Positions 31,501-64,000 of a DNA stretch of 64,000 bases are shown in pieces. The stretch is from Apteryx mantelli (taxonomy: Eukaryota; Chordata; Aves; Apterygiformes; Apterygidae), in assembly GCF_036417845.1 (NCBI RefSeq), contig NC_089980.1, positions 62,804,501 through 62,868,500 of the forward strand, written 5' to 3'. Position 1 is the stretch's first letter. The number at the start of each line of letters is the position of its first letter. Both the position numbers and the translations under genes were made by a program. Under the pieces are notes generated by a model that saw only the letters and a list, made by a program, of their open reading frames with translations, made no database searches and had not been told where the DNA came from.

Positions 31501-34500
31501 TGATGGCCCCTGAAGACACTGATCTGCTCTTACCCACACAATAGGGGCGGCAGGCCAGGACTGCAGCAGAATTCCCTCACTAAGGCTTTTTGCTGTTCCC
31601 TACTTTCAAACAGATATGTTCTAACTTATTTCTGCAGGGGAAAACAAAACTAGTTTTTTTGCTTAGCCAGTCTTAAGACGGTCGTTCTTTCTCACCATCC
31701 TTGTCGCTGTGATAGAGATTACGACCTCTCTGACTAGGAGGCAGAAACAGTAAGCTTCTGCTGGAAGGAATTAAAAAAAGGGATTATTGTAATGCTTGCT
31801 TACATCTATAAGCAAACTCCAAGCTCACCTCAAGATGGGAAGGCATCTTCTGATTTTTTTTGGCCATATCACTAACAATTTTCATAGCTTTGTCATTTTT
31901 CCCTTGAGATATCAGCCACCTGGGAGACTCCGGGAGGCACCTACAATGCAAGCAAGGGGATGCTATTATACCAAAAGCTAATGCCCATGCAGTGCTCCTG
32001 TGTTTGGAGACTGCGAGGACAGTACTTTTGTTGAATAGACACAGTTTTTTCCTCTCTCCTCCCCCCCACCCTGAGCTTATTCCACTGTTGCAGTGGAAAA
32101 AAGGAGCAATTATCGTAGTGGCTTTAGTCAAAGAGGAGCTTATTAAAGATATATCCGGAAGGTCTTTGAGTGAGAGCAATGTTATAATTTATTTAGCCTG
32201 TCCACCACAAACTGGCTCCGCTTAAGGAACCATTTTCCAGATGCACTATCACAGGTCAAGAAAAAGTATTCACAAAAATTAAAAAAGGAAGAGAACAAAT
32301 CCCCTTCTATTATTCCTATCCTCTTGGTTCAGCTAAACCATGTCTCATACCCAAAGCATTCAAAAGCTGAAAAATATTAATCAAAAAGATAAGCGAGAAC
32401 CCAAAATAAAGGTGAGCCCATGCACCTTCTTTTGGTTGGACCAAAGACCTGCAGGTTTTTCTTGAAAGGATGTATAAATAACCTGTCACAATTATGTAAG
32501 TATTCAGCAATGTTTCAATAACCATCTTTTCAACACAGGATCCACTAAATTATGTCAGACATTTCTTTTCCTTTATAAAACGTTTAGTGAAGATAATAAA
32601 TTAAGCCATTCTTCAGCGATTTTAAAACTAGTCTTTCCTTTAAAGCAGAAGTTGGATGTGGCATACAGGCTCAGATGCAACAGTGTCATTTGTTGAGGGG
32701 CCCTATTTTCCTCTCCTTATTACTGTTTTTCGCCTCTTTGCATTAACAGGCATAAGTGTCTAAAAAGCAGTGCAAAATTTCCCTCAATTTCTTGAGTCTC
32801 AGGGACCAAAAGAGGTTGCTTTTTTGGTCTTGCATGGAGACACAACAAAAGCATGTTTACCAGTAGTAGAGCAAGAAGAAGCAGCTTGGCAGAGTAACAG
32901 TGAGCTGCAGCCATCTCCAGTGAGGAATTGCATAAGCAATGGCATCAAACACAAGGAGTCCAACCGAGAAGGCTGCCTGATAGAGAATCCCCACTGTTCT
33001 CCTATATCTTGGACCAACAACTTCTGTGACTAAAAATGCATAGAGACAGATGAATGATACTTCAGCGATGACAGCTCAGTGCAGGAGTAAGTTTCTCTGT
33101 GGGGACTCTGGAAAACAAATGTTACATTAATACCCTGAAGAAAGCTTCTTAGAAATTCTGGACTTCCCGGCATAAAATCTCAGAAAAGGGGAGGGGGGGG
33201 AGGGGGAAAGAAATCCCCCAATGCTTGTACAGGAAGGTGGTTTGCTTTTCTATCACCAAAACTTAGTAAGAGAGAAGAGCACTTTAGTTCTAAGCTGATC
33301 TAAAGCATTCAGTTGTTATCTTCTACCATGGAAAACACTGAATAAATCAAACACTTCCTCAAAATGCACAGATGGATTTTATTGTAAAAATCTAACACTA
33401 CCCTACATAACGCCTCCAACCTGATAACAAAGCAGAATTTTTTTTAAGTGTACCTTTTCAGTCTGCATCTCACTCCCAACACACAAGAAATGTTTGTATC
33501 GCAAAATGGGACTTACAGCTTCCCAGACAGGATGGTTTCATGACTAATTTGCCGTTTGCAAACATCACATCATGGGATAGGCCTCACAGGTTAAGTGTTA
33601 TTGACACAGAACTAAGAGATAGTAATTATTCTGTAACATGAGCATAACACGTGAAATTTTGCATCCAGTTGTGTCTCATTTCAAAAAAGCAAAGAGTAGA
33701 AAAAGAACAAAATGCAATTATTTAGCAATAATTATTTCCTTATTCAAGGAACTGCTTCGTGTAGAATTACAGATTAGCTAATATTGTTTTGGCAAATGAC
33801 TAGTAGAAACAAAAGACATCTCTGGCTCAGAAAGACTCTGAGCCAAAAACAGTTGAAAATCAGATAAGTGTCCCAAGAGAGTATGATAATAAGGTTGCTC
33901 TGTCCTTATATCCTTCCCTAGGCATTCAGTATTGACCACCTTTAGGGAAAGGATACAAGTTTAAACTGGCTTTGGGTCTGATTCCATGCGACTTTTCTCA
34001 TAAGCAAGTTTCAAGGAGAACCCAGAAGTAATAAAGTGCATTCGAGGAAAATACGGTAGGACAAATCATTGTCCTGAAATGAATTTTATACTATAAAAAT
34101 GGCATGAAGTCCTCCAGAAGTGGCGATGAAAGTTTCATCAGTGCCAAAAAAAGATCTAAGAGGCTAAATAAGCATCTAGAGCATGCACAGGAAGGAACAA
34201 TCCCATCTTGGCAGAGAATGGCCTGGCTGTGGGCTAGATGTTTTTATTTAACTTTTTATCTCAAACATCTGGATAACTGCATTAGCAAGAATTAACAGTA
34301 GTTTAATTAACAGTAGTTTAAAGTGTTCCTATTTACATTTTTGCCACCATCACAGTTAACTGAATGGAGTAGGGTGGGCCACCTCACTCAGAGCTATTCC
34401 GTAGAGCCACCTACCTTGCTAACCCAGGTAACACTGAATTGAGCAGCATTTGAAATACTTTATTCACTGCTCTGTTGATTACTTGTTCATTTATTGCTAG

Positions 34501-37500
34501 AAGGCTGAAGTCCGCAAGAGAGAAGCCCCCGGTGGCTCTGCCAAACCCCAGAATTGGGGCCTAAGTTCCAAGCTGGCCCCCAACTCTGCCTTGGCACAGC
34601 AGAGCACTGCTCATTAGCTACAAAATTAATCTTAGCTTGAGATTGTACTGGTGCAATACTGCCCTCGGGATGGGCACGTGGTAGTGGCATGCCAGCTCAG
34701 GTTGGCTCCGGTGGTGACTAGCGCAGGCATCCCTGCCTCGTGGGCTGTTGCTCCTGCTGACGTGCCTGTGCCTTGCTGCCATGCAGTTGTGCTTTGCAGC
34801 CAGATGTGATCAGCGCAGCACTGGGAGAAACACCACAACAGCCAGCCTCTTCCCATTGCTTTGAAAACCCTGGGTTTGGCCTTTACTCAAACAAGTGCAC
34901 AACACCAGTATACTCAAACAGCTTGTCTTTTTCTCAGCAAGAACATACTGTTCTTCAGTTATTTTTAGCTTGTAAAGCCTCTGTTTGCCCTTTATTGCTC
35001 TTTATAGCATAAAAATGCCTTCAATTTTCCCTATTCTCTGCATGTTTCTTTAATGGCCTCCTTTGTCCTCATCATCTCAGCTGTAACTTGTTTAGAAAGT
35101 CGGCACCAGGCAGCTGCAGGCTGCACTAGGGTCTGCCTCCTTCCCCAGCCAGCACCCCAATGGGTGGGAGAGGGGCTCAGGTCTGGCAAGGGGAGAGCTG
35201 CACCGCAGGGGACAGCCTACCCTTAGGTAGCAGCCTTAATTTACCATCACTTGTTTGATCTTTGAAGGCTACTATGGTTTGGGAAAAACAAGTGTTTAAA
35301 AAAAAATACCAGTAAGCCAAAGAGGGAGAATATTCCTCAAGATCAGCTTGTATAAATGATTTCAAAAAGCTATGAGGCTTTTTTTTTTAAAAAATAGCTT
35401 TTTCCTTGTCTTCTGTAGCCAATACAGGGAAAAGGTCTGAACTCACCCAGGATGTAGCCTGTGGTCCAGCAGCCCTTGCTGACCAGTCCTTGCAGGAAAC
35501 GGAAGATCAATATCCACAGGTAGGTGGGCACAAAGACCAGAAGAATTCCACAAATAGCATTTGCAAGTATTGTAGTTAAGAGGCAAAATTTACGCCCAAA
35601 CCTGGGTTGGAAGATAATACATGTAAGACAAAACACCAATAAGGAAGACACAGATGTTTTAAATCAGAGAGCTGTGCATCATCAAAAAAAAAAATCCAAA
35701 AATTTTGTAATGCAAGGCACAGACACATGCCAACTTCTATTGCTAGCCCATTACTCGCTGACTTTTCAATTCCTTGAAAAATTACTGTGGCAACTGCTCT
35801 GCAATTCCGTAAAGGCTTTCAAGGCTGCTTGAAGGAAGAAAATTTTCCCCAGCAGCAGCTGAACAATAGGCCCATATTTACATATGCTTGTGGCTGTTAT
35901 CTCCAAATTCCAGAACAGGCAGCTTATTAATTTTTTTAACACAGAGTGAAAAATATGTACAGATTAATATTATGGCTCTGATATACCTGTGGGGACCAGG
36001 GACAACAAATTTATATACAAGAAACTTAATCCTGAAAAATATGTATGGATCCTGCCCTGAGTGGGCTGTACTTCACAACTGGAGAACAGAACCTGCAGTA
36101 CTAACAGTCTCTAGATAGGAGAGAAGCAAGGGAGAAAAGGGTCTTCAAATATTGGTATTTGTTTATTTTTAAACCAAACTGCCTGGACAAGTTTGAGTGT
36201 TTTCTCACTGCCCACGCACTTGCCATGTGGCAAGCCAGAAGTATAGCATGTGTCCCACTGCAGATCCTCCAAGGGAGGACTTTATCTGCTGGTTCTGAAC
36301 TAGGTGCTAAGATGCCAGGGCACACAGTGATTTCCAAACCAGCACTGCTGTTGTATCTATTTGGCAATCTATGTGTGTATTACTTCTTAACAAGTAAAAG
36401 TTTCTCAAAGGGAAGCCAAATGTTTCCAAGACATAGCAGAATAGAGCACGACTGTTTGAGTGAAAGCTACAAATCAGAATTTCCTGGCTTCTATCAACTA
36501 CCCCAATATTTTCATATGGGACTGTTGAGTTTTGCATATATGGTCCTGAAACACCTTGCAGAAAATGTGAGTTTTGCAGGACTTGCAGAGCAGGAAAGAT
36601 TGACACCTATGTAAACTATCAGGTATGATTTGTTCACTCAAGAATGACAGTTAGAGTGCTCATTTCTAATACTATGAGTTAATATCTAGGTGATTTGCCT
36701 TATTTTGAAAAGAACAGAGATATCAATTGCACAACTTTTCTCTGCCTTTACTTAAGCTTAGCTGCTGAACACTGATAAAGGAGGTCAGGTGGTTTTACTG
36801 TCATCCCACACATACCTGTCTGCTATGTAGCCAATGTTTACAGAGCCAATAAAAAACCCAGCATTCACAGACGACTGAAAGAGATCCAGCTTCCAGGAGT
36901 CCTCGCACACCAGGTTAAACTAAAGAAGCAACCACAGTTAGAAGCAAAACAGTGAAATCAGGAACTAGTTCACACTTGCAAGTCTCCTTAGCTTCAGTTA
37001 GGGACTTAAACATGTTTCTGGGTTGACACTCATTTTAATCAACATCCAGGACCCCTATTGATTTAATTAAGTGTCCAACATTAAAAATAGGATCAAGCCT
37101 TTGAGCAATTCCCTGCTATTTCCATTCACGTTTCATCTTTATTACTGGAAAGAACATAACTGTTATTTGCTTGCCAAAATTAGGACCATAATGCACATTA
37201 TGCTTTGTTCAAACTCAGTTAATCATCCTAGGCTTTCTAAACATTTTTTTGGAGGGGGGCTGGTGGTTAATGTTTCTAAGCAGTTCTAGTTGCCTCATCT
37301 CCTTGTACGCCACAGTAGCTCCTGCAAATTGCTTTGGATTCAGGATGGTATATTCCCAAAAGGTATTCCAGATATGCCTGATTTGTCATGCTTTCTGTGA
37401 AGCACCGGTAATGCCTCACTGAAGGAGTATGGGATGAGTTACTGTGCATCTTCTGCTGAGCTGAATGGGCTCAGGAGGGGTTTGGAAGCAGAGAAAAATC

Positions 37501-43603: not shown

Positions 43604-43987
43604 TTAAACATTCAACAGGTCCTCATCACTATCATCATGAAATGATACTGTATTTGTAGAGTTCTGTGCCTGCTGTTGGCCCGGCTTGGCTTTTGCTTTC
43701 CTATCCTTTCCCCCATTCAGTAAGTCAAGGCTTGGTGTCTTCTTTTGTGGGTGCTTGCTCTTGTGTAGTCCTCTTCCTGATTGAATCTTTACATCTGGAA
43801 TTGTTAGCACTTCATCCTCACTGTCCAGGTCATCAACATGGAGAGATGTAAAGGCTTCAGATGTAACAGACTTGGTAGTAATGTGACCATTTTCCTGCCC
43901 TCCTTTTGCTATTCTCTGATTTGGTGCTGCAATTTCCTCCATAAGCCACTCTGTTTCATGCTCATTAGCTTCTTCTTCACTGTTTAT
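43604..43987 (-). CDS. IGF2R: IGF2R exon 48: sorting tail and stop
   Basis: Final coding exon, acceptor ctttttctttcag, TAA at 43604-43606. Begins [19 protein letters not shown], which contains the WLM element used for retromer/SNX-dependent recycling. It then carries [12 protein letters not shown], the acidic casein-kinase-type cluster [13 protein letters not shown], and the terminal acidic dileucine [10 protein letters not shown] recognised by GGA adaptors. The region between the acidic clusters is shorter and more diverged than in human, while all named sorting motifs are kept. Confidence 0.97.
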   Translation of the reverse strand: MNSEEEANEHETEWLMEEIAAPNQRIAKGGQENGHITTKSVTSEAFTSLHVDDLDSEDEVLTIPDVKIQSGRGLHKSKHPQKKTPSLDLLNGGKDRKAKAKPGQQQAQNSTNTVSFHDDSDEDLLNV

Positions 43988-46900
43988 CTGAAAGAAAAAG
44001 ATGCAAGAGAAGATTGCATATAGTGCTCTAGACTCTGCCTATTACTGATCTCTCCAATTAGCAGACCCATCCCATACAGGGGCTTGGATTTATTTGGTCA
44101 TGAGACCATAACAGCACATTCTTGCAGTATATTACTATTGCTTCCAGCCATTCTGTACTATGTCTGAACCACAGCTGCCTTCTCCTAAAGTTTTTACCTT
44201 ATTAGGCTACTCATGGACTGCTTTTCAGCATTTCTTCAATTGTATTTTCTTTTGCCTTTTCACTATGTAGTTAAGGCATCTCAACCAGCCACGTGGCTTT
44301 TCTGAAGCCAGTTTAATATCCACATACTGAAGAAACTGGGAAGTCTTATTAAAAAGTCATTAAGGCAACCTTACATAAAACAAAAACCTTCGATTTCACC
44401 ACTATATTACCTTTGTGTATTTGTAGGAAACACCTGATGTTCTTCTGCAGCAGTTTGTTATCTTGTTTATTACAGTTTCCCTAAAAAAAGAAAGGGAAAA
44501 AATACTGCATTAGGAAGATTGTATCCAACTTAACAGCCCTCACCATTCTTCACTGGAGTTTTGCCATCAAAGCAGCATACAGCTTGCTTGGTAAAATGCT
44601 ATCATATTTGATTCAGAATCACTCTAATAAGCAAAAGTTGGTCCATAATGCTGCACATCTTCCTGCTTACCACAACTTCAGCCTGACTGTTCTGATACAC
44701 CTTTGGCCTTAAAGCCTATGGGAAATAAAGCAACCTTGTCTGGAAAGCAGAGAAGCAGTATTATTTGCATGTGTTCTTTGTTGCTGTTGTATGGTTCCAG
44801 CCTGACACCATGAAAGAAGGTGGTGGGTAGCATTAAATATTAGTTGCCACATTGTTTTACTCCCCTTAGTATTCTACAGTAGAGATTAGTCCAAGTCAAT
44901 TCCTCTTTGCATGGGCCTTCAGATAGTAATGAAAATTTTGAAAACAAAACAGTAGCTGTTTGACAGTTGATGCTGTTAGCTGAAAAACAAGAACTTAAAC
45001 CTCCAAAATTCACTAATTCCCTTCTGTTGAGGAAACAAAGTTCTACAAAAATATCTTTAAAAGCTTCCCAGTTATTTCTTACCTCCTCTCTTTTTTGTAG
45101 AACAGCAAGATTACTAAGCATGCAGTGAGAACAACCAGAAGGACACTAAGCACAGCACCAACAGCTTGACTTCTCCCTGAAAGGCCTTTATGTATTTGGG
45201 CTTCTTGATCAGATTGGCCCTCATGGCTTCCTGGAACATTCGTTGACCTAATGGCGTAAGTTAGGAGAAAGGAAGAATAAGATCTATGGACCAGTTGCAT
45301 CAAACACGATTAGAAACAGTGGCTTCAAAGGAACTAACATGCCAGGCCATCCTGTCAGTCCCATCTAGCAACTGTAAAGAATAGAATTCAGTGGATTTTT
45401 GTTCTCAATAAGATCACTCAAAAAGTAAGATATGCATTGTGCTACATTCTGATGTGCTTTCAAGTAGTACATAAAAATCGAGATTCCAGTCAATATCCAA
45501 GTTATGATTAGACACTCTACAGCTTACACAGCAGCAGCTTTTCATACAAAGCTGTTTTAGAATGAAACCTGCACCTGAGCAAGTTGTAGAAGCTACAGTA
45601 ATTATTTACTTTCCAGCTGACTGTGGCAGCACACAGAACAAACTCCCTCAATAGCTAATCCCCTGTTTAACCAGAATGAACATACCCTCCCTGTGTTTTG
45701 AAACTAGCTAGCAACAAGAAAGTGAACAGTCCTAGGATTAATCATTTCTACATATGGACAACCCTTTGCAGTGGGGGTGCCCAGTGCCAAGACTGGGTTT
45801 AAGGACCTAGGTGCAGTGATTTTGCTTTTAAACCACTGTCTTTACCCCTTTTTAGATCTGTAGATTAGAACAATCAATTCATTGCAGAAATACCTCATGA
45901 TTTCTGTAATATCTGTATTGTTTTTCACTCTAAGGCGGTGAGGACAAAAAAAATTTGCCTGTATACTGGCTATTCCTTTCAGTAACATGAAACAGCATGT
46001 TTTCTCAGTTACAGTAGGTTGTACTTAATGGAGAGATGGATATTAAACTCTACCATGCCTTTCCACAGTTTCCAGCGCAAACAAAGTTTTAGGTCCAGAT
46101 CAGCTTGACTGCTAAATGTTTGGCACTTGGCAATCACTACATGCATGGACATCAATTCAATCTACCCATGCATTTACTCCTTTTGCCAAAGTCTGTTTGC
46201 CTTTTCCTCCTTTCACAACCACTGTGATGAATAAGGACAAAGACCTTTAGCTGACAAGAGCTGCTTTCAGAAAAAGATTAATTACTCACATTAATGAACA
46301 CACAGCAGATGTGTACCAGGTAAATAAATATTGACAGTCTGCTGTCTCATGAAGGAATTCAGGGATGCCTTCCTTTGCTTGTTGACTGCAGTGGAAGAAA
46401 ATGGTTGAAGAGACAAACTTTGACTTATCTTTACCACATCTAGAATCCGATGAAAATATCACATCCAAGTCATCATCTACAAAGAGAAGAAAAACTTACA
46501 GTTAAGTACTCCCCTGAGAACAGTCTATCAATACTAGGCTGGAAAGAAAGTTAACTACTAGTCTCTACATTCTTACATGTATTTATTGTGCAATAGCAAT
46601 TTACACACTATGAAGTTTCTGCAGGTGACCTTACCTGTATGATACCATGCCTTACATACCTCAGTATAACTGATGGGGATCAGTTACACTATAGAACAAC
46701 AGGGTATGCTCTTTACCAGAAAAACTAAAGAGGTAAAGGAGACCACTGCTTATGGAGCATAAGCACAGAGGGAAAATTGTTTTACATTATTCCTATTAAA
46801 GCCTTTTAAGAAGTATCAACCCAAATCTACTTCTAAAGCCGCTTCTGCAACTGAGCTAACACAACAGGAAAGAAACAAATCCTGGAAGACAGACTCTGCA

Positions 46901-52900: not shown

Positions 52901-55900
52901 GCAGAGTATTCACCACTTATGACTTAAAACCTCAATTTCTAAAGGCTTCAGTTTCTCCTTTTACTTTGCTCACCCACTTGGATAAAGTGAAGTTTGTGCC
53001 ATACATTCCCTTGCCCACCCCATCCTTTCCTCCCACCACATTACACCAGTGGTCTTCTGTCCCAGACAAATAAAGGCTAACTCTGCCTTAACTCAGATCA
53101 TTACACATTAAATATAGGAAATTTTTACCATTGCCACAAAATCCCCACTTTCCATCTCCCTGGTAGTTTTCAGTTGTAGCACACCACGGTCTATTCTTTT
53201 CTTCCGTAATACATTCCTCATAGCTCTTCCCTTTGTACTTGAAGGGGAACACACAAAGCTCCCCTTTTTCAGTCACTGAGAAAGAAGGGTACATTCACTT
53301 AGTAACATGCAGTGGAAGAGCAGGCATATCCAGAGCCAGCACCACATCTGAAGCCTGCACTTCTATACTATTTAAGAACAGTCATGAGGCAGAGAAACAC
53401 TGAAACATAGAATTTAATATTAGGATGTAGTATACAGTTAGTTATGATCACCCCTACAGAAAAGCTGCACTCTGCACTCCCTTTTAGCCAATATTTGTTG
53501 AGGCTGCAGATTAATACAATGCATTTGATTTAGCAGGACTACATGTTTTTATTTAGGCATGCAAAACCCACATTGCTTCCCTCCTGTTGTCACAAAACTC
53601 TGATTCAAGGGTAAGAAAGCTGACAAGTCTTTACTGTAAAGAGTGGATCTGCTGGATCTCACCTGGAGGGCACCGATCACCGCCTGTATACTGCAAGATG
53701 ACCGTTTCATCCTGGTGGCTATAGTCCATTTTCATTTCTTTTACATTTCCAAAGGATGACGCACCATTTTCCGAGATCAGACACACAGCCCCATCCTTGC
53801 ATTTCCCCTGGGGCATGTCTGCTGCCTTACTGCACACACCAACATGGTAACTACTGGATCCAGAAAGCACCTGTGCAGACACCCAGAAGCATCATCAACA
53901 AGACAGCCTTTTACAGCCTGCGGTCAATACTTGCAAAGTATTACCTAAGAGCTTTGAGCCAAGTCTCATACAATATTTGCAAAATGCAGGTGGAGAAATT
54001 GGAACTAATTTTGCAAGGCTGACCTTCATTTAATGGCAAAGTTGCAGACCAAGTATACCCACAGGGCCAAGGATATAACCTGTTCAGTAGAACTTTTTCC
54101 ACATTCAAGACCAAGTCAAAATTCTGCCTCACGTGAAGAGTTCCACCCTCCTTCCCCATCAGGGGACTCATGAATTTACCTCTCAAAAATAAAAAAGACA
54201 GCATTCTAATGTCTTTTTCCTCTGCTAGACAGCAAACAAATATGAACACTGACCAAAGCTGCAGCATGCTCTTCAGTCTCCTTTCACACCCTAGAGAAGA
54301 TGTCAAACCCTCTGCTTCAGCTTCAAAATGTTGATAGTGATGAGCAATATGATCATGCCACTAGAATGCATTACCTTATATGATCTTCCAGAAAGGCTGG
54401 TCAAGTTAAAAGTATAGTGTAATTGTTCATCAGTCACAGAGCAACCTGAAGTTTTCACTTGATCAGGACACACAACTGGAGTTTCCCATTCAAACACAAA
54501 ATTGCAGTCAAGTTTCCTTATCATCTTCGGCTTGCCCTGTTACCAAATAACATAGCAAGAGACATTAGGTTTTCTGGGTTTTTTTGTTTGTTTTTTGTTT
54601 TAAACAAAAAAGTTAACCTCAGTTATTACTGAGGTTAGATTTCACTAATGGTAGGGCTAATTTGTCATCTCAGTATTACAACTAGTACTAAAAAAAAAAA
54701 GCTGCAGGTAAAGTACTTTCTACCTAGCTTCAGAAAACACTCGAATTGAAGCAGGCAAATTCTTATTAATTAGGGTTAAGATTTTGATGTTCAGCTTAGT
54801 TGAAAGCAGGAACAAAAATGAAATGCTGTGTTGGTCCATGGTAGGGAACATTTTGAAGAGTTCACCAAGTTCAGGTCAGGACAGAATGTTGTTTCCTTTA
54901 TCACCATATTTTAAACAAAAATACAGATGCAGGCTGTGTTATTTTCAGAGCTGCCCAGATTTCAGCTCATTTCCCATGTTGATGGACAATGGTTCTACTG
55001 AGCATCTCCAACAAGCTCTAGTTTGTCAGTCATCATAAAGTGCTTCCTCTGAATGCTTTAACAAAAGCAGTAAAAAAATTCAGGACATGTCAGGTTTATA
55101 TAGTCATAGTGTTCAGATATCAGCCCTGAACAAAAAACTAAGTCTCTAAAAGCAGATTTTTAAAGCTGTGTAATTATGGAAAGAGTTACAATATAGGGCA
55201 AATATTTCATAGATAAAAACACGTATAACTGTGTAAAGTTATTGTGTTAGCTTACAGAAAAAGGTCAAGCTTTTGGATCAAGGCACAGTACAAGACAGCA
55301 TTAAGTTTAATGTCAACAATAAGTAACCAGTACATTCCTTCAGTGGAATCTGATCCCCAAAACCATCATAATCAGATACTCCCAAACCTAAAGATCATGT
55401 AACTCTGAAATTTTGCTCAGTTAAGTCTATAAATACCAAGCATATTCCTTGCTCAAGTATGAGACAAGCTTGTTAATCCATTCTTACATGCTAGAAACAA
55501 ATTCTTGATTTAGTTATAAGCAAAGCTAACATTCTCACTGGTTACTACCCATTTTCCACTGCACTCCAGGATCAACATAAGTTTTTCATAGGTATCTTAC
55601 CAGACTAGTTCCTTGGCTGCAGTGAAATACAATGAGAGAAGTATAGTTCAACTTGTTTATCTGGCAAGGAGTAGTGCTGTTGTAAGTGATGTAAACTTCA
55701 TTCACTGCCTCATTTATCTTAGGAGGTTCAGTAACACGACCAATATCCTACACAAGCAAAAATAGGCATTAAAAAAACAGATGAACTACTAGATTTCAGA
55801 TCAGTTCAGAACCCAGAGTTTCAGACCAATTCAGAGATTTATCTGTTAAGCTTACAAAGGAGCACAAATACTATGCACTTTTGAAAAATGCATCCTATAT

Positions 55901-58900
55901 ATCCAAAGAACAGTTATATTTCAATTCTATCAAAACAGAAGTTGGACAGCTCAAAACACCCCTCAATTGAGCTTGACACAAGCCAGGGAGGTTCTGCATC
56001 TTATGGGCAGTATTTTTTAATCATCAGGCCAGAACAGCTACATACCACTTAAAAATAACATTATATTAACGATGGAGTGGGTTTTGTAGATTAATGTGGA
56101 AGTTCATAGAAAACTAAATCCACTTTTTAATGTGCATCTTCTAAAGCCTGCAAAGACTACTTCAAAAGGTAAGAGCCTCCAGCATCTCTCAATGTAACAT
56201 CGCGGAATACTACAAGCTATCGCGGAATACTACAAGCTATCGCGGAATACTACAAGCTATCGCGGAATACTACAAGCTATCGCGGAATACTACAAGCTAT
56301 CGCGGAATACTACAAGCTATCGCGGAATACTACAAGCTATCGCGGAATACTACAAGCTATCGCGGAATACTACAAGCTATCGCGGAATACTACAAGCTAT
56401 CGCGGAATACTACAAGCTATCGCGGAATACTACAAGCTATCGCGGAATACTACAAGCTATCGCGGAATACTACAAGCTATCGCGGAATACAAGCGTATTA
56501 TTTCTGCACATCAGAATGGCACTAAGAGGCTTTTTGCTTCCCAGGCTCAGTATTTGGCATGCAGCCCTAAGTGAAAATTTTCTATAGTGGTTTTTCATAT
56601 TTGTCATTGTATGCATTGAAAACAAATCTGCAATATTATGGAATCTTCTACCTCCCAAAAACCACTGGGGTTCAGGATGTGTAAATACTTCTTACTAGGG
56701 AAAAGTGATGAAAGGGAATTTTGCAGAGTATATTTTAATTTAGTATTCCATTTATTTCTCCCATTGCCAAGCCTCCAGCTCAAATCAGGTCTCTGGACAG
56801 GGATATTGTTTTAAACTAGCAGAGAAGTTTACGTTCCAATGTTTCCAGGCATACTACTTACTATTGGTGGTCCATTAACAGGAACCATGCAAACAGCTGC
56901 TCCAGGTGGGCAATTGACATCTTTGATAGGATTGAGAGGCTCACAAATATTGATGTAGAAGTCTGGAGAAGCATCCATTGCAGCTTCGTCCACAAATGCC
57001 TCATAATATCCAGAGCGATGGATCAGAGGAGACAGGTCAATAACAGAACTCCCATTCAACACTGAGCACTTCACCTATAAAAAGGTATGTTTTATTGCTA
57101 TCCACTTTAGAGACAAACATGCTCTCCTTCACAGGGAGAGAAGTGTAGTTGCACTTAAGTCTCAAATTTTACTCAAGTAAAGCAGCATTTGTTACGATTT
57201 TTGTTTGGCTACAGATACTAAGCACCCACAAGCTGCACATGAAAGAGTCCAGTTCTTAAAAACATGCTTATGGAATGCAGTCTATATCAGAACATCAAGA
57301 GTTAAAGCTTTAGCATGCCCATCCCCCCTACATCATGGGACCATTTCTCATAAACAAACTTGGTTATAACAGTGTAAAGCTACTGCATTGTAAGCTGATG
57401 GCTTGAGTACTGCATTTCCTCAGAAGCTATTTCAAACACATTCTCAAAGTATATAAGCTTACTGACAACATACTAGAGATTTTATTCTTGTTTAAGTGTT
57501 AGATAAGGAGAAACTGCAGCAAAATTATTATTGTTTCAGGACAAGTGATCATCACTACCTAGCCATTACTATTCATGAAATATCTAGAGTCACTGTGGAT
57601 ACACTGAAAAAAAGGTCAGAAAGGCATAAACAATCACTGAATAAAGTTAAGAGGCTGGAGAACGCAATGTCTTTATGCAGTAGGGATTTATAGGCACACT
57701 GTGGTGCATACGGCTGTAGCCTTCTCTCCAGTAGTATGCAACAGAATCTTACAAGAGGCTGAAGGAGGGAACATACAACATAGGTCCTTTCAGGGAAAAG
57801 AAAGCTGGAAAATGTTTTTCTGATGGGAAGTGAGAACTATAATAGTACTGAGACTGTGACTAGGGAAAAAATAACCTGCTGTGACAGTCACTCTCTGCAA
57901 AAGTATTTGAAGTAGCAAGAAAATTTTTGACAAAAGTAGCTAACAAAGCTTTCTTCATGTGACCTTTTCACTTAAGGAAGCCCAAAGCATGACTGGGTTC
58001 AAAGCAAGACTGGGCTGATTCGCAAAAGGTACTGTTCAGGTGCTATTAAGAACTGACCTGAACTCACCCTATAGCTCAGGGAACACAAACTTAAGCCATT
58101 TAACCTTAGACTCTGACCCTTTCCTGGCTTTTACGCTGTATATCCACCACTGGTAACAGCCTAACTAGCTAAAATAAGACCAGCTCAAAGTTTTGTCTGG
58201 AACACCAGTTGGTCTAGAGTTTACTAAATAAGGATATTACAGCATGCATTATAGGCCAAAGGCAGATCTGAAATTCATGCTATCAAGGTTGATCAAATCA
58301 GGTACTGTACTGAGCAAGCCTGATCATATTTGCCTGACCTCTAGATACTTGCTGAGAAACAAAGTAGACTTAGGCACAGATCTCCATCCTCAGCTCAACC
58401 TAAACCATTGCTTGCCTGTTCTGTTGGAGAATCTTAACCATGAATTCCCAAAAATCAGCCTAAGGCTTCCATTTGAGCTGTATAGCAGCTAAGTAGATTC
58501 ACAGAAAGGTTGATCTGGAGTTAATGCTTTAACTTGTTCACCATGTTCACCAGAAATTTGATCAGTATTGTCTCTGCTGTAGAAGTCCCGTTAAAGAAAA
58601 AAGAAATGAGAACTTCTGTATTAATTTGGGTCCTCTGCTACAGAAAGTGTCCTGTCTCTCAAAGGTTTTAAAACATACATTGCTACTATGCCTAAACCAC
58701 TGGAAACTTAGTCCCACAGAAAATTGTCTTCTAGAGGTAATTCTCACCTCTTCCTCACAAGCCAAGGAAGTATGCCAAGAGAAGTAGTTAGTGCATGTCT
58801 GCTCATCAAGGGACAGAAAAACAGGCCAGCTATCATCTCCTGCATCAGACTTGCAAACAAAGCTAAAATAGCTTTTATGCTTCAGTTCAGGGTCTGCAGG

Positions 58901-61900
58901 GCAAGGATCTCCATCTTCATAAACAAGCTTTAACACTTGATCTTCGTAAGTTAAAATTTTACTTAGCTTTCCAGCGTTAATCGGTTTTGAACCACCAGTG
59001 ATGCAGACACCTGAAGTGTAAACAAAAAAACCAAAGCATATCAACCACCCTTCCAAATTATATTAAACAACTACCTTGCAACATGATCTTTGCATGAAAC
59101 AGGATGTCTGAAGGGCAAAAACAAGTTTTTTCCAAATAGAGTACTTATTTTGCTTTTTCTTAACTCGTACAGTAATACAATTGTAAATATTTCTGCTACA
59201 AGTGACCAAACTTTTCTACAACATTCCTTTACATAGTACAAAGTAACCTGTGTGAATTGTAGGAGTTTCTTCCCTATCTTCCTCCTAACCATCCCCTCAA
59301 GGAAAGAAAGTTAAGATTTAATCTCCATTTATTTTCCTAGGAAAGGCTAGTTCACACTGTCTGCTATAACTATTAAACTGAGCTGCACTAAAACACAGTC
59401 CAAATACTGTCTTTGACACTTGTTAACCAGTGGAATGTATGCTATACATGCTATAAACTATACACATTTAGACAACCACAAAGCATAGCTTTGTTACTTC
59501 TCTGAAAACTAGGGGATTAATGCTAGATCTCAACCAAGATTACACATAATTTTAAGTTGCTTCTAAAAACCAAATCAATACAGTATTTTCTTGTAAATAT
59601 GCAAAAAGTAATCTTGTAAATTCATGTGATAGTCTTATAGCACTTAAAAATGCTCAAATATTGTCTCATGTTCATTTGAGAGAAGGACCATCCAACCTGC
59701 CATGACCAGCAAGAAGTTTTAGTAAAGTTTCAAAAGCGGCTAAAACAGAGTCAAAAGCTACAAGAGTTGGCAGTGGGTTTAAATTGAGAACACAAGCCTG
59801 AACACGGATGTGTTACAGCAATAGATCACCATGCAATGTTTGTGCCCTCAGCCCACTCCAGCTAGAAGCTTATACCCTACTCCCCTTTCGATAGCAGCCA
59901 AGAGGTGTAGCAGCAGCGTCTACAGTCTTGTCTTTGTGGTCCACATGAATACCCACCCATTCAGACCATAGAAAGTGGACAGGAAGCAAGGCCACTTAAG
60001 GCTAGGAATGGAATATGATATGAATAATTGTTCCATTTCTTAGAATAGTTTTAGATTTTTTCTTAGTTGATTCAGCCATACAACTGTTTTCTTCACTCTT
60101 TCCATGTCTTCAGTAAAACCTGCCTCTCATTTTACTGTAGACTTGAGCACAAATAGTTCCTCGGGTACCCTATAGCCTGTGATTACTGTACCGGAGAGAG
60201 CGAGATGCTTACCAGCTCCATTAGCACATGAACTTTTAGTTTCAGCACACACATTCAATTCAATTTTTCTGTTGTGAGAATCATAGATTGTGTAGCCAGA
60301 CTCTCGCTTCAGTGACGTCAAATCAAAAAGATGGCCTGCAGGCAGATCAGGGAATAAGTCAATCTTTTTGCAGATTCAAAGTCAAGATTTCTGTTTCAAA
60401 AGCTCTCAGTAACTTCGTTTAGTAGGAGAGTCAACCAGCCTCTCTTGTCTGCTAACTTATGAATTCTCAACTCTTTGGCCTTCTATTAGAGGCAAAAATC
60501 TAGTTTCAGGACAGCTATATAGCAAACTCCCTACAGACCATTTATTTCCCAAAGGACAACACAGTAGTACCTTACAAGATATTTCTACCCACCAGCTTGT
60601 TAGTCACTATCCAGAGAAGATCTGCCACATTGTCCTTCTCTAATAAAGTCCCTCAAGAAGGCAAATGCAGTAGTGCTGCTCCCAGCAGCCTCCTCTGCAC
60701 ATAAAATTCTCATGCCCTCTCCTTACCTGTTGCAGGATTGGTTACCCAGCAGTCATTTTGCACATTGCTTTTAAGAGGACACGCAGCAGCCGTGAACCAT
60801 AAGAAGGTATATTCACAATCTTCAATGGCCGTTATAAGTTCTGGCTTTGATTCCTAAATATGAATCAATGGAGAGCTACATCTCTACAAAGTGATACTGT
60901 AAGATTTCATGCCACAGGGTTATCCCTGAGCTTTTAGTTCAGTTGAATTCAAATGCCAATCCTTGGACTCCATATCCCACCCTGCTCCAGTGAATTAACT
61001 CAAGTCTACAGTAATTAACTGAGGCTATTTCATACACACAAGACAGCACAGAATCATTATCAGGAACAATAAAACTGTTAAGACAGTCTACTCAGGCAAC
61101 GAAAGACCCAAAAGGTGAGGGTAAGACACCTTGCCAAACAGATTATTTAATATCAAGGCACACAGATGTGTAACCAAGAGTTAAAACTACATGGCCAATA
61201 GTATTATTTATTGCTCTAAACACTTCCTAGCCTGCAATACATTCATTTTTAAAAGACAGACAAATTGAAGCTATTACAAATGTACAGTCTACTATCACAG
61301 ATTTTATCCAAATGATCTCTTAAAAACTGCTCAGCAGCTGAAGTTCAGGTTCTCTACCCCATACTCTGCTCATAAGCCTCCCTCCCATCCACTTACAGAA
61401 GACTAGGTTTGGGAATGCATATGAACTGTCCACCATTCTCCCCATATACACAAAAGTGTATACAACTCATGAAAAGGCAAAACCCTGCCAGCAGGGCCTC
61501 ACTTACGAGTCTGTTTTCATCACACTTGAGGCGCAATATTGTTGTTTTCTTGCGAATTTTATCTGGGCACTGCTCTCCATTAACATATTTCAGAATAGAA
61601 ATGCCGTTTTCCCACCGGGGACCATCAGCCACTTCTCCAAGACTTATACATTTTGCACCATCCATAACAGAGACAGCAGCATCAGAAGGACAGGAACCTA
61701 TGCAGATGAACAAATAAACCGTAACTCTAGGTGTTAAGCCTTTCTTGCTTGGAATAAGATTCCATTACTATACTTTCAGGTATGTCATGACTGACCTGTC
61801 TTCAAGCAATCCCCGAAATCATACCCACAGTGCTTTTCTCAAACACACAAGTACCAGCAGCCACTTTGCCACCACTTTGCGCATGACCTTGAGTGAAGTA

Positions 61901-64000
61901 ACTACTACTAGGGTGCTCAGTCTTCCACTGCACAAAAATGGGGTCAGTCTCTGAAGATGCCATGGAGAAGATTCAAGACACCTTGCTCCAAAAAATGATT
62001 TTTATCTCTAGGAGCTACAGCAGACTTTGAATCAGGAAAGAAGAGCTAGAGCGCTGAAGTTGTCACAGGAGACATTCTAGCCTTTCCTTGGTACCCAGGT
62101 GACAACTGTCTCCACATACTTTGCTTCGTAATCTTTTACTCTGAACAACAAGCAACAGCACTGTTCTACCATTCAGCTCCTCTAACCACAGCTAGAACGT
62201 ATTTTTATTTTGCTCTTACGTGCAGCACCATATGGCACTAAGGATGCGCAGACATTAATATAGTATTTTTGTGTAGAAGCAGATAGAGCAATAGCCTCCC
62301 AATTCTCTCTATGCCGTGTCAGAGATGAAAGATCATAGAAGTTTCCGTCATTGTCCCTGTAAGAAGGACAGTAAAAAATTTAAATGAAAAGACATTTAAA
62401 AGTCTCTTAAATCTAGTAGCTTAAGCATTGTAACTCACAATAAAGTTAAATGTAATAACTCTACAAGCAAAGTACCATGCTGGATAAGAAGCCTACACCA
62501 GGCTCACTGCTTTCCACAAAGCTCAAACTCTCTACAGAGATAAATCACTGCATCAGCCAACCCACAGTAACTGTCCATGCACACACAGCCCACAGCCAAC
62601 GCGAGAGGAATTTCAGCTTGTCATTGAAGCATGCAGTCTTTCAGTGCTTGCCAAGCACAAATGCACAGTTATAGTAGATTTTCTACCCTAAGGTAAAACA
62701 CTTATCACCATGCCACATTCTCCCAGCGAGTTATTAGCTGCATTTGACCCTGCCTATTTAAGCCTTAATGAGCTAATACTTGGTCTTGACAATAGTAGAT
62801 AACCTTTTCCCCAGCATAACCTTGCTTGATGAAAGTTCCAGGCAGACAGCAATAGTTACTATTTAACTAATTCAAACAAGAATGCTAGACACTTGTAACA
62901 AACATTCAAAGTTCAACCACCAATAACCCCACACCCAGTTCACTTTGACACTGTCTTTGAGTATCTTCTAGGGATTAGTGTTTTTCTTCGGTGAAACATT
63001 AGATTTACATTATAAGAGATACTTAAAATATATTAGCATTAACTACTGGGTTAGTGGTAACTGGCTATGTCAAAACAATAGCCAAAGTGGCAGCTTTGCA
63101 CTGAATTGCAATAAGGCTATATTCGTTTCTGTCAACACACAGTCCCAATTTAAATAATAGAAACATGACTTACTTGTAGGAACATTCAGTAGATTTGACA
63201 GGCGGGCAGGCATATTGTGTATGCCATTCAAACATGTATGTGCAGTCTGGAGTTTCTTTCAAAAACACTGGCTGAAAGAAAAAAAAAGTTAAGAAGTTTA
63301 CTTCTTCTCACTTAGACATATGGAAACTACCAAGAAGTCTCAGTCTTGCCCCTAGAAGATCCAGGAACTTGTATACACATATTCTGAGAGATGTACTATG
63401 TCTGACCAACTGAAAGCATGGCTTCTTCCAAAGCTGGGTTTAGTCACATGCACACTTCAAGTAACAGAGCAACCATTAGGAACCACTGCCTCCTCCATGA
63501 AGTCAGGAAGGGAAAGAGCAAAAGTAACCCTACGCATCACTAAAAACAGAAAGAAAAGCACAGGAACAGAGAAAAAGCTATTAAAAATGACAAGTAACTA
63601 GCTTATTTTGTTCTGGCCATGTAATACCTGCTTTCCTGCAGATTCATCCTCCCACCTTGTTTTTACAAGGGGACTGCTCTTATTTCTGTGAGAACATCCC
63701 TTCCCAACATCTAAAATAGCTTTACTAATTGTAGTCATCCCTTAAAGGAATAGCATACCATGGCTTTCCCAGGGCACGGGGAAGGTACCTTCCATAAATA
63801 GGAAATTCAAACTACCATTTGGCGATGATTCTGTTATCTCACAGGAACTTTCCATCTACAGCCTAATCTGTAAATGATTAGGCAGTCCCTGGAGAAAGCT
63901 AGTTCATGTTCTTCATCTCACCCTCCCAAACATTAAAGAAAGGGTGACCCTGGAAGACAGTATGTACAGGAAGTGTGTTCTGAAACTAACCTCTGATGCA
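43604..64000 (-). CDS. IGF2R: IGF2R, cation-independent mannose-6-phosphate receptor, 3' part (exons 28-48)
   Basis: Type I membrane receptor that carries mannose-6-phosphate-tagged hydrolases from the trans-Golgi and cell surface to endosomes. Twenty complete exons plus the last 10 nt of another lie on the minus strand. Their lengths (98, 137, 191, 127, 123, 263, 213, 147, 162, 208, 147, 235, 137, 115, 147, 185, 187, 165, 70, 384 nt) keep one open frame through every junction to a TAA at 43604-43606, about 1,149 codons. In order they encode the end of lumenal repeat 9, repeats 10 to 15 (each ending in a F-x-W-x-T...C motif), a fibronectin type II module in repeat 13, one transmembrane span and a cytosolic tail ending [10 protein letters not shown]. 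The human protein is about 2,490 residues, so the N-terminal half lies beyond 64000. Exon numbers assume 48 exons. I see no break. Introns are 0.4-1.7 kb, short for this gene and bird-like. Confidence 0.97.
44411..44480 (-). CDS. IGF2R: IGF2R exon 47: juxtamembrane tail
   Basis: 70 nt, acceptor ctttttttag, donor gtaatata. Encodes [20 protein letters not shown] followed by YTK. The CC pair is the palmitoylation region known in the human tail. Tyr-Thr-Lys plus the first residue of exon 48 (Ile) makes the YxxΦ adaptor-binding motif (YSKV in human). Confidence 0.94.
45083..45247 (-). CDS. IGF2R: IGF2R exon 46: stalk, transmembrane span, start of tail
   Basis: 165 nt, acceptor cgccattag, donor gtaagaaa. 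After a polar stalk ([17 protein letters not shown]) comes one hydrophobic span, about 20 residues, from [10 protein letters not shown] to LVILLFY, followed by the stop-transfer KKERR. Family position and composition make this the single membrane anchor. Confidence 0.96.
46290..46476 (-). CDS. IGF2R: IGF2R exon 45: end of repeat 15
   Basis: 187 nt, acceptor tctctttgtag, donor gtgagtaa. Encodes [17 protein letters not shown], then [19 protein letters not shown] and the final AVCSL. Glu (HET) and Tyr (CQY) keep the spacing of the mannose-6-phosphate pocket. The Arg position cannot be assigned with certainty by eye. Confidence 0.95.
46998..47182 (-). CDS. IGF2R: IGF2R exon 44: repeat 15
   Basis: 185 nt, acceptor gtctcctcag, donor gtaagtgc. 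Encodes [20 protein letters not shown], then [19 protein letters not shown]. The Gln in ICQVK sits where the M6P-contacting Gln of repeat 3 lies, consistent with the lectin activity reported for repeat 15. Confidence 0.95.
48553..48699 (-). CDS. IGF2R: IGF2R exon 43: end of repeat 14, start of repeat 15
   Basis: 147 nt, acceptor tacttggcag, donor gtaagtaa. Encodes [18 protein letters not shown] closing repeat 14, then [20 protein letters not shown] opening repeat 15. NGT and NFS are sequons. Ends in phase 2. Confidence 0.95.
50370..50484 (-). CDS. IGF2R: IGF2R exon 42: repeat 14
   Basis: 115 nt, acceptor catttcttctag, donor gtgagtaac. Encodes [20 protein letters not shown] and then [19 protein letters not shown]. 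Too short to be obvious as an isolated ORF, but the flanking splice sites and phases (1 in, 2 out) fit exactly. Confidence 0.92.
51312..51448 (-). CDS. IGF2R: IGF2R exon 41: repeat 14
   Basis: 137 nt, acceptor tttctatag, donor gtatagtt. Encodes [20 protein letters not shown], then [20 protein letters not shown] and KLNVT. NVT is a sequon. Phase 2 at the 5' end and phase 1 at the 3' end match the neighbouring exons. Confidence 0.94.
52438..52672 (-). CDS. IGF2R: IGF2R exon 40: end of repeat 13, start of repeat 14
   Basis: 235 nt, acceptor cttccttag, donor gtgagta. Encodes [20 protein letters not shown], then [17 protein letters not shown] closing repeat 13, then the start of repeat 14 ([13 protein letters not shown]). 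Ends in phase 2. Confidence 0.95.
53129..53275 (-). CDS. IGF2R: IGF2R exon 39: fibronectin type II module in repeat 13
   Basis: 147 nt, acceptor ttctttctcag, donor gtaaaaat. Encodes a complete FN2 fold: [17 protein letters not shown], then RPWCATT, ending GKWGFCGN. All four FN2 cysteines and the aromatic core are present. A single FN2 module nested in repeat 13 is diagnostic of this receptor. Phase 1 at both ends makes it a symmetrical, insertable module. Confidence 0.96.
53663..53870 (-). CDS. IGF2R: IGF2R exon 38: repeat 13
   Basis: 208 nt, acceptor gtctgcacag, donor gtgagatc. Encodes [20 protein letters not shown] and on to YTGGDRCPP. The repeat is then interrupted by the fibronectin type II exon. 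The closing G is shared with the next exon's Val codon. Confidence 0.95.
54375..54536 (-). CDS. IGF2R: IGF2R exon 37: end of repeat 12, start of repeat 13
   Basis: 162 nt, acceptor ggtaacag, donor gtaatgc. Encodes [16 protein letters not shown] closing repeat 12, then [20 protein letters not shown] opening repeat 13. N-L-T is a sequon. Both ends are phase 0. Confidence 0.95.
54614..54637. repeat. Small inverted repeat in IGF2R intron 36
   Basis: Perfect 10-bp arms (TAACCTCAGT and ACTGAGGTTA) around the loop TATT. It sits just after a T-rich, near-palindromic stretch. A short hairpin in an intron with no visible function. Confidence 0.6.
55601..55747 (-). CDS. IGF2R: IGF2R exon 36: repeat 12
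   Basis: 147 nt, acceptor gcttgtgtag, donor gtaagata. Encodes [20 protein letters not shown] followed by TYNSTTPC, with an N-S-T glycosylation sequon and a second one at N-Y-T. Ends [12 protein letters not shown] in phase 0. Confidence 0.95.
56199..56490. repeat. Perfect 20-bp tandem repeat (14.5 copies) in IGF2R intron 35
   Basis: The unit CGCGGAATACTACAAGCTAT is repeated 14 times without a single mismatch from 56201 to 56480. A half unit (56481-56490) follows, and the two bases before 56201 also fit the period. Each unit carries one CGCG, so about 30 CpG sites cluster in 290 bp. No copy of the unit is seen elsewhere in the window. The plus strand has no stop codon in any frame across the array. 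Confidence 0.98.
56862..57074 (-). CDS. IGF2R: IGF2R exon 35: repeat 12
   Basis: 213 nt, acceptor ttttatag, donor gtaagtag. Encodes [20 protein letters not shown] and on to [21 protein letters not shown]. It starts and ends in phase 0. Carries the canonical VIDLSPL strand and the CPPGAAVC turn of the repeat family. Confidence 0.96.
58748..59010 (-). CDS. IGF2R: IGF2R exon 34: repeat 11, CD and FG loops
   Basis: 263 nt, acceptor ttacacttcag, donor gtgagaat. Begins [14 protein letters not shown] (CD loop), continues through [12 protein letters not shown] (FG loop), and closes with [16 protein letters not shown]. Compared with human repeat 11 (CFGQTRISVGK), the CD loop is two residues longer and lacks the Phe1567, Gly1568 and Ile1572 contacts. 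The FG loop has Asp where human has Ser1596 and Lys1601. This pattern fits a receptor that does not bind IGF2 strongly, as is established for chicken. Confidence 0.95.
60213..60335 (-). CDS. IGF2R: IGF2R exon 33: repeat 11, AB-loop region
   Basis: 123 nt, acceptor tgcctgcag, donor gtaagcat. Encodes [20 protein letters not shown] and on to [15 protein letters not shown]. Repeat 11 binds IGF2 in therian mammals. The AB loop reads YDSHNRK here where human has AYSEKGL. Loop length is the same, but the Tyr1542 and Gly1546 positions are Asp and Arg. An effect on IGF2 binding is inferred, not shown. Confidence 0.94.
60727..60853 (-). CDS. IGF2R: IGF2R exon 32: end of repeat 10, start of repeat 11
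   Basis: 127 nt, donor gtaagga, acceptor catatttag. Encodes the closing [17 protein letters not shown] of repeat 10, then [14 protein letters not shown]. The latter aligns with the human repeat-11 start (DCQVTNPSTGHLFDL). The single trailing G is completed by exon 33. Confidence 0.94.
61507..61697 (-). CDS. IGF2R: IGF2R exon 31: repeat 10
   Basis: 191 nt, acceptor tctgcatag, donor gtaagtg. Encodes [20 protein letters not shown] and onward through [10 protein letters not shown] to [10 protein letters not shown]. This is the middle of the repeat-10 barrel with its paired cysteines. Ends in phase 0. Confidence 0.95.
62220..62356 (-). CDS. IGF2R: IGF2R exon 30: repeat 10
   Basis: 137 nt, acceptor ttcttacag, donor gtaagagc. 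Encodes [20 protein letters not shown] and onward to [12 protein letters not shown]. The YDLSSL motif is the conserved early strand of these repeats. The last nucleotide C joins GT of the next exon to make an Arg codon. Confidence 0.94.
63174..63271 (-). CDS. IGF2R: IGF2R exon 29: end of repeat 9, start of repeat 10
   Basis: 98 nt between a ctttcag acceptor and a gtaagtc donor. It encodes [18 protein letters not shown] and the closing Cys of repeat 9, then the start of repeat 10. The Glu of KET and the Tyr of CTY have the E-x5-Y spacing of the mannose-6-phosphate pocket (human Glu1354 and Tyr1360 by family knowledge). This suggests the high-affinity lectin site of repeat 9 is kept. The Gln and Arg partners lie outside the window. 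Confidence 0.93.
63991..64000 (-). CDS. IGF2R: IGF2R exon 28, last 10 nt
   Basis: Only the end of the exon is inside the window. It reads ...GCA TCA GAG followed by a gttagt donor and ends in phase 0, which fits the next exon starting with a whole codon (Ala-Ser-Glu, then Pro-Val-Phe). The rest of the gene continues past the window edge. Confidence 0.8.

Follow-up and report, generated by a model that had tools for sequence, protein, structure and literature searches.

Minisatellites, or VNTRs, are head-to-tail arrays with units of about 10-100 bp, and a live one is marked by a copy number that differs from one individual to another. CpG islands are defined by a length of at least 200 bp, a CpG observed/expected ratio of at least 0.6 and a GC content of at least 50%; they are unmethylated and carry H3K4me3. 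In mammals, intron 2 of IGF2R contains a CpG-dense imprint control region. The tandem array described here, from an IGF2R intron of Apteryx mantelli, shares features with all three; it was studied within a stretch of 64,000 nucleotides, the whole of which we call the window. Our chief finding is its presence in the genome assembly, where a second copy was not found. We think it very likely to be a young, single-locus, CpG-bearing minisatellite in its intron, probably neutral and probably methylated.

Sequence of the array

56199..56490, plus strand: perfect 20-bp tandem array, 14.6 copies of ATCGCGGAATACTACAAGCT, with 30 CpGs

A script found the 20-bp periodicity to be exact across these 292 bp and to end at their limits. 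TRF scores the array at 584 (14.6 copies, 100% matches, 0% indels), against 53-69 for the five other rows that it reports in the window. A search of the window for the unit, allowing up to 3 mismatches, gave 14 matches, every one of them exact, and gave 0 in 100 shuffles. The perfect homogeneity noted in a preliminary description of this DNA is therefore borne out, as is the CpG density: the observed/expected ratio is 2.03 in the array (30 CpGs/292 bp) versus 0.167 for the window outside it. GC content of the array is 45.2%. The motif CGCG occurs a single time elsewhere in the window, at 62600, and the window contains 0 N.

Two further points of the preliminary description fared less well. Because the unit, read cyclically, lacks any stop trinucleotide on the plus strand, three plus-strand frames (126, 133 and 129 aa, stop to stop) are open through the array; the minus strand, which is the IGF2R sense, has two TAG per unit. 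The description of the plus strand as stop-free is thus true, but it is uninformative, since 33% of 20,000 20-mers sampled from the window, made cyclic and scored on one strand, are stop-free as well. It had also been proposed that proteins bound to the unit would be displayed on one DNA face, which holds at 10.0 bp per turn only. At 10.5 bp per turn each copy is computed to shift the phase by 34 degrees, which would keep bound proteins from sharing a face.

Genomic context

55748..56861, minus strand: IGF2R intron with the array, 1114 bp, GTAAGT...GTGTAG (splice sites read by eye)
56862..57074, minus strand: IGF2R exon upstream of this intron, 213 bp (joined-exon match to the receptor)
55601..55747, minus strand: IGF2R exon downstream of this intron, 147 bp (joined-exon match to the receptor)
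43607..44038, minus strand: frame with the IGF2R C-terminal tail (PDB match, no Pfam match)

The array lies inside an IGF2R intron, as first described; 371 bp separate it from the splice site on the donor side, and 451 bp from that on the acceptor side. The placement rests on the splice sites and on the flanking exons, which match solved receptor chains. Joining the two exons yields a continuous 120-aa open frame with matches to nine distinct PDB sequences at E≤0.001, all of them cation-independent mannose-6-phosphate receptor (IGF2R), and presumably bovine and human. The best match (E=1e-80) covers residues 1660-1781 of 2499, which we take to be the 12th repeat domain of the receptor. The 43607-44038 frame marks the end of the IGF2R coding part: its residues 15-144 align with residues 2362-2499 of a receptor chain that is 2499 residues long (E=9.9e-25).

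Eight further frames were scanned with Pfam: two contain a CIMR repeat (58565-59062 and 61396-61764), two a weak transporter match, and four nothing, the 43607-44038 frame being one of these four. The transporter frames are on the minus strand downstream of IGF2R, at 31787-32188 and 35373-35663, with Sugar_tr just above its cut-off and MFS_1 below its own; we assume that the neighbours of IGF2R are organic ion transporters of the SLC22A type. The assembly, divided into 408 contigs, totals 1.504 Gb; the contig that carries the window measures 141 Mb.

Uniqueness and rarity

The preliminary description had considered that the unit might prove to be a widespread satellite, and exact, near-match and flank searches of the assembly found nothing of the kind. 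Exact matches to the unit found in the 1.5-Gb assembly numbered 14, and all fell within this array. Allowing up to 3 mismatches added 15 sites (one with 2 mismatches, fourteen with 3), versus 3 sites for a control in which the unit was written backwards. This excess might have marked a faint repeat family, a reading that we rejected on finding that the flanks resemble neither one another (no mutual similarity among the 15 regions at E≤1e-5) nor the window (none at E≤1e-3). The array with its flanks, 901 bp, matched only itself in the assembly, in a search that skipped simple repeats and very common words. A dispersed satellite or transposon-borne repeat is not supported, since no related copies were found elsewhere in the assembly, and the searches gave no sign of an insertion either. 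A text search of 5.39 million papers for the unit, in three rotations and on both strands, gave no hit.

Within the window, no piece of the unit of 10 to 14 bases occurs outside the array. Pieces of nine bases occur there three times, one of them inverted and in the same intron as the array (56741-56749, minus strand); given that number of occurrences, the inverted piece is probably due to chance.

Rarity was surveyed in 230,300 bases outside the window, consisting of 20 stretches of 10 kb from one contig (C1) and of 2,020 bases around each of the 15 near matches; the latter regions are not a random sample. TRF returned 47 rows for this sample and the window together; 37 have a period of at least 7, and 31 of those are outside the window. 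Among these 31 rows the highest copy number is 7.0 (10 bp, 77% matches) and the top score 118 (19 bp, 3.1 copies). The top-scoring row is itself a perfect array, at L036:3868-3926. Nothing comparable to 56199-56490 was found in the sampled bases, which come mostly from one contig and are too few to estimate how often such arrays occur across the genome (95% upper bound ~13 per Mb).

Origin of the array

A recent expansion was named as a possible cause in the preliminary description, and our reasoning supports it as the likeliest one. Some 20 bp of local sequence would first have been duplicated in tandem, and the duplicated unit would then have expanded by replication slippage or unequal exchange. 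The time since the expansion, or since the last homogenisation, would have been too short for substitutions to build up. The array would be removed by splicing with its intron, and is probably selectively neutral and probably methylated. If substitutions are assumed to arise at 2e-9 per site per year, and ten times faster at CpGs, the absence of any change over 292 bp gives a 95% upper age of ~1.8 Myr; other assumed rates move this bound between 0.9 and 5.1 Myr.

Several observations count against a young minisatellite. Outside the array, two or more CpGs are present in 1.1% of the window's 20-mers, which makes a seed with two of them uncommon in this DNA; and the excess of near matches, 15 versus 3, is explained no further than by the unrelated flanks.

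The failure to demonstrate a founder copy, or a degenerate copy at either edge of the array, also counts against this account. The 5′ flank does not resemble a further unit. At the 3′ edge a degenerate copy with one TAC missing was seen by eye and was rejected: 1500 stretches were drawn from the window, those starting with the next base of the array were dropped, and 127 of the remaining 1097 score at least as well. Expansion driven by folding was likewise rejected, because the stretches tested fold no better than their shuffles. For three plus-strand units folded as DNA, z was 0.40 and 128 of 200 shuffles folded equally well or better; for the whole array folded as IGF2R-sense RNA, z was 3.35 and all 200 shuffles were at least as good. 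An Rfam search of the window at gathering thresholds gave 0 matches. A scan of the intron for bacterial-type promoters, which does not apply to this organism, gave 1 versus 3.4 in shuffles.

Possible assembly artefact

Perfect homogeneity could also be the product of polishing over a repeat. The array might then be older and variable in the animal, flattened or given a wrong length in the consensus, or even absent from the animal. We consider this unlikely, since 292 bp is shorter than ordinary long reads and the array sits in a window without N on a contig of 141 Mb. The array had no match in plasmids, and collections of bacterial and viral contigs held no exact match. The exact unit was found nowhere else in the assembly, so the array has not been misplaced here from another locus.

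Possible function and methylation

Alternatively, the array could have a function, with selection or gene conversion preserving its uniformity. It would then be a CpG-dense group of binding sites that works from within the intron as an enhancer or silencer of IGF2R or modulates its splicing. Its CpG ratio, so far above that of the background, and its regular spacing would suit such a role, and an intronic VNTR is reported to be linked to TERT splicing (PMC11830802). We nevertheless find the proposal improbable. With 10.5 bp per turn successive units drift out of helical register, the splice sites are hundreds of bases away on either side, and two published results, taken up below, also speak against it.

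The first of these is a study of synthetic inserts in mouse ES cells, and bears on methylation. It is reportedly the work of Wachter and colleagues. It describes inserts rich in CpG but also in A+T as becoming densely methylated, and places the transition at 50-60% GC (PMC4204011); the array, at 45% GC, lies below that range. Since the published inserts were ~1,000 bp long and in another animal, methylation of the array is only a prediction, though a probable one, and 'isolated methylation target', the phrase of the preliminary description, is a fair prediction too.

The second is that IGF2R expression in chicken is reported to be biallelic, in a review which adds that such studies are not exhaustive and are too few to rule imprinting out in birds (PMC3693910). 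An imprinting role of the array is unlikely for this reason.

A bolder proposal is that a length-variable and very recent CpG array serves as a methylation-dependent switch inside IGF2R. Each copy would add two CpGs, so that allele length would set intronic methylation and thereby tune transcription or splicing of the surrounding exons. We give this very little credence, and regard the array, which has so far given no hint of a function, as a probably neutral minisatellite.

Possible insertion of foreign or mobile DNA

That foreign or mobile DNA already carrying the repeat was inserted here would account for a unit whose CpG content is unlike that of the surrounding intron, but it is highly improbable, given that a second copy was not found in the assembly and that the flanking bases, inspected by eye, have no common target-site duplication. 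A bacterial, plasmid or viral source was rejected: the array had no blastn match in plasmids at E up to 10, a 25-base piece of it had no exact match in genome_contigs and the unit had none in viral_contigs, while the hits in the phage collection, to three Vibrio phage records over 28 bases, had E=5 and are noise.

Comparison with known systems

Like CpG islands, the array exceeds the minimum length (292 bp) and the minimum observed/expected ratio (2.03). It differs from them in its GC content, which at 45.2% is below 50%, in being built from one repeated unit and in lying in the middle of a gene.

With the imprint control region of mammalian IGF2R it shares a CpG-dense sequence in an intron of the same gene. 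However, its intron interrupts the region of residues ~1660-1781 of 2499, far downstream of intron 2, and chicken IGF2R is reported as biallelic in the review cited above (PMC3693910).

Compared with other minisatellites, the array is unusual in its perfect homogeneity and in having two CpGs per unit at 45% GC. In other respects it resembles them: its 20-bp units are arranged head to tail in 14.6 copies, it is intronic, and it was found at one locus rather than as a megabase satellite. It thus probably belongs to a well-known kind, the perfect and apparently single-locus minisatellite, young and neutral. One locus of this sort is of little consequence, and the array requires no special explanation. 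It might be used as a natural test of whether a CpG-dense, low-GC repeat acquires methylation and then decays; perhaps it could also provide a polymorphic marker.
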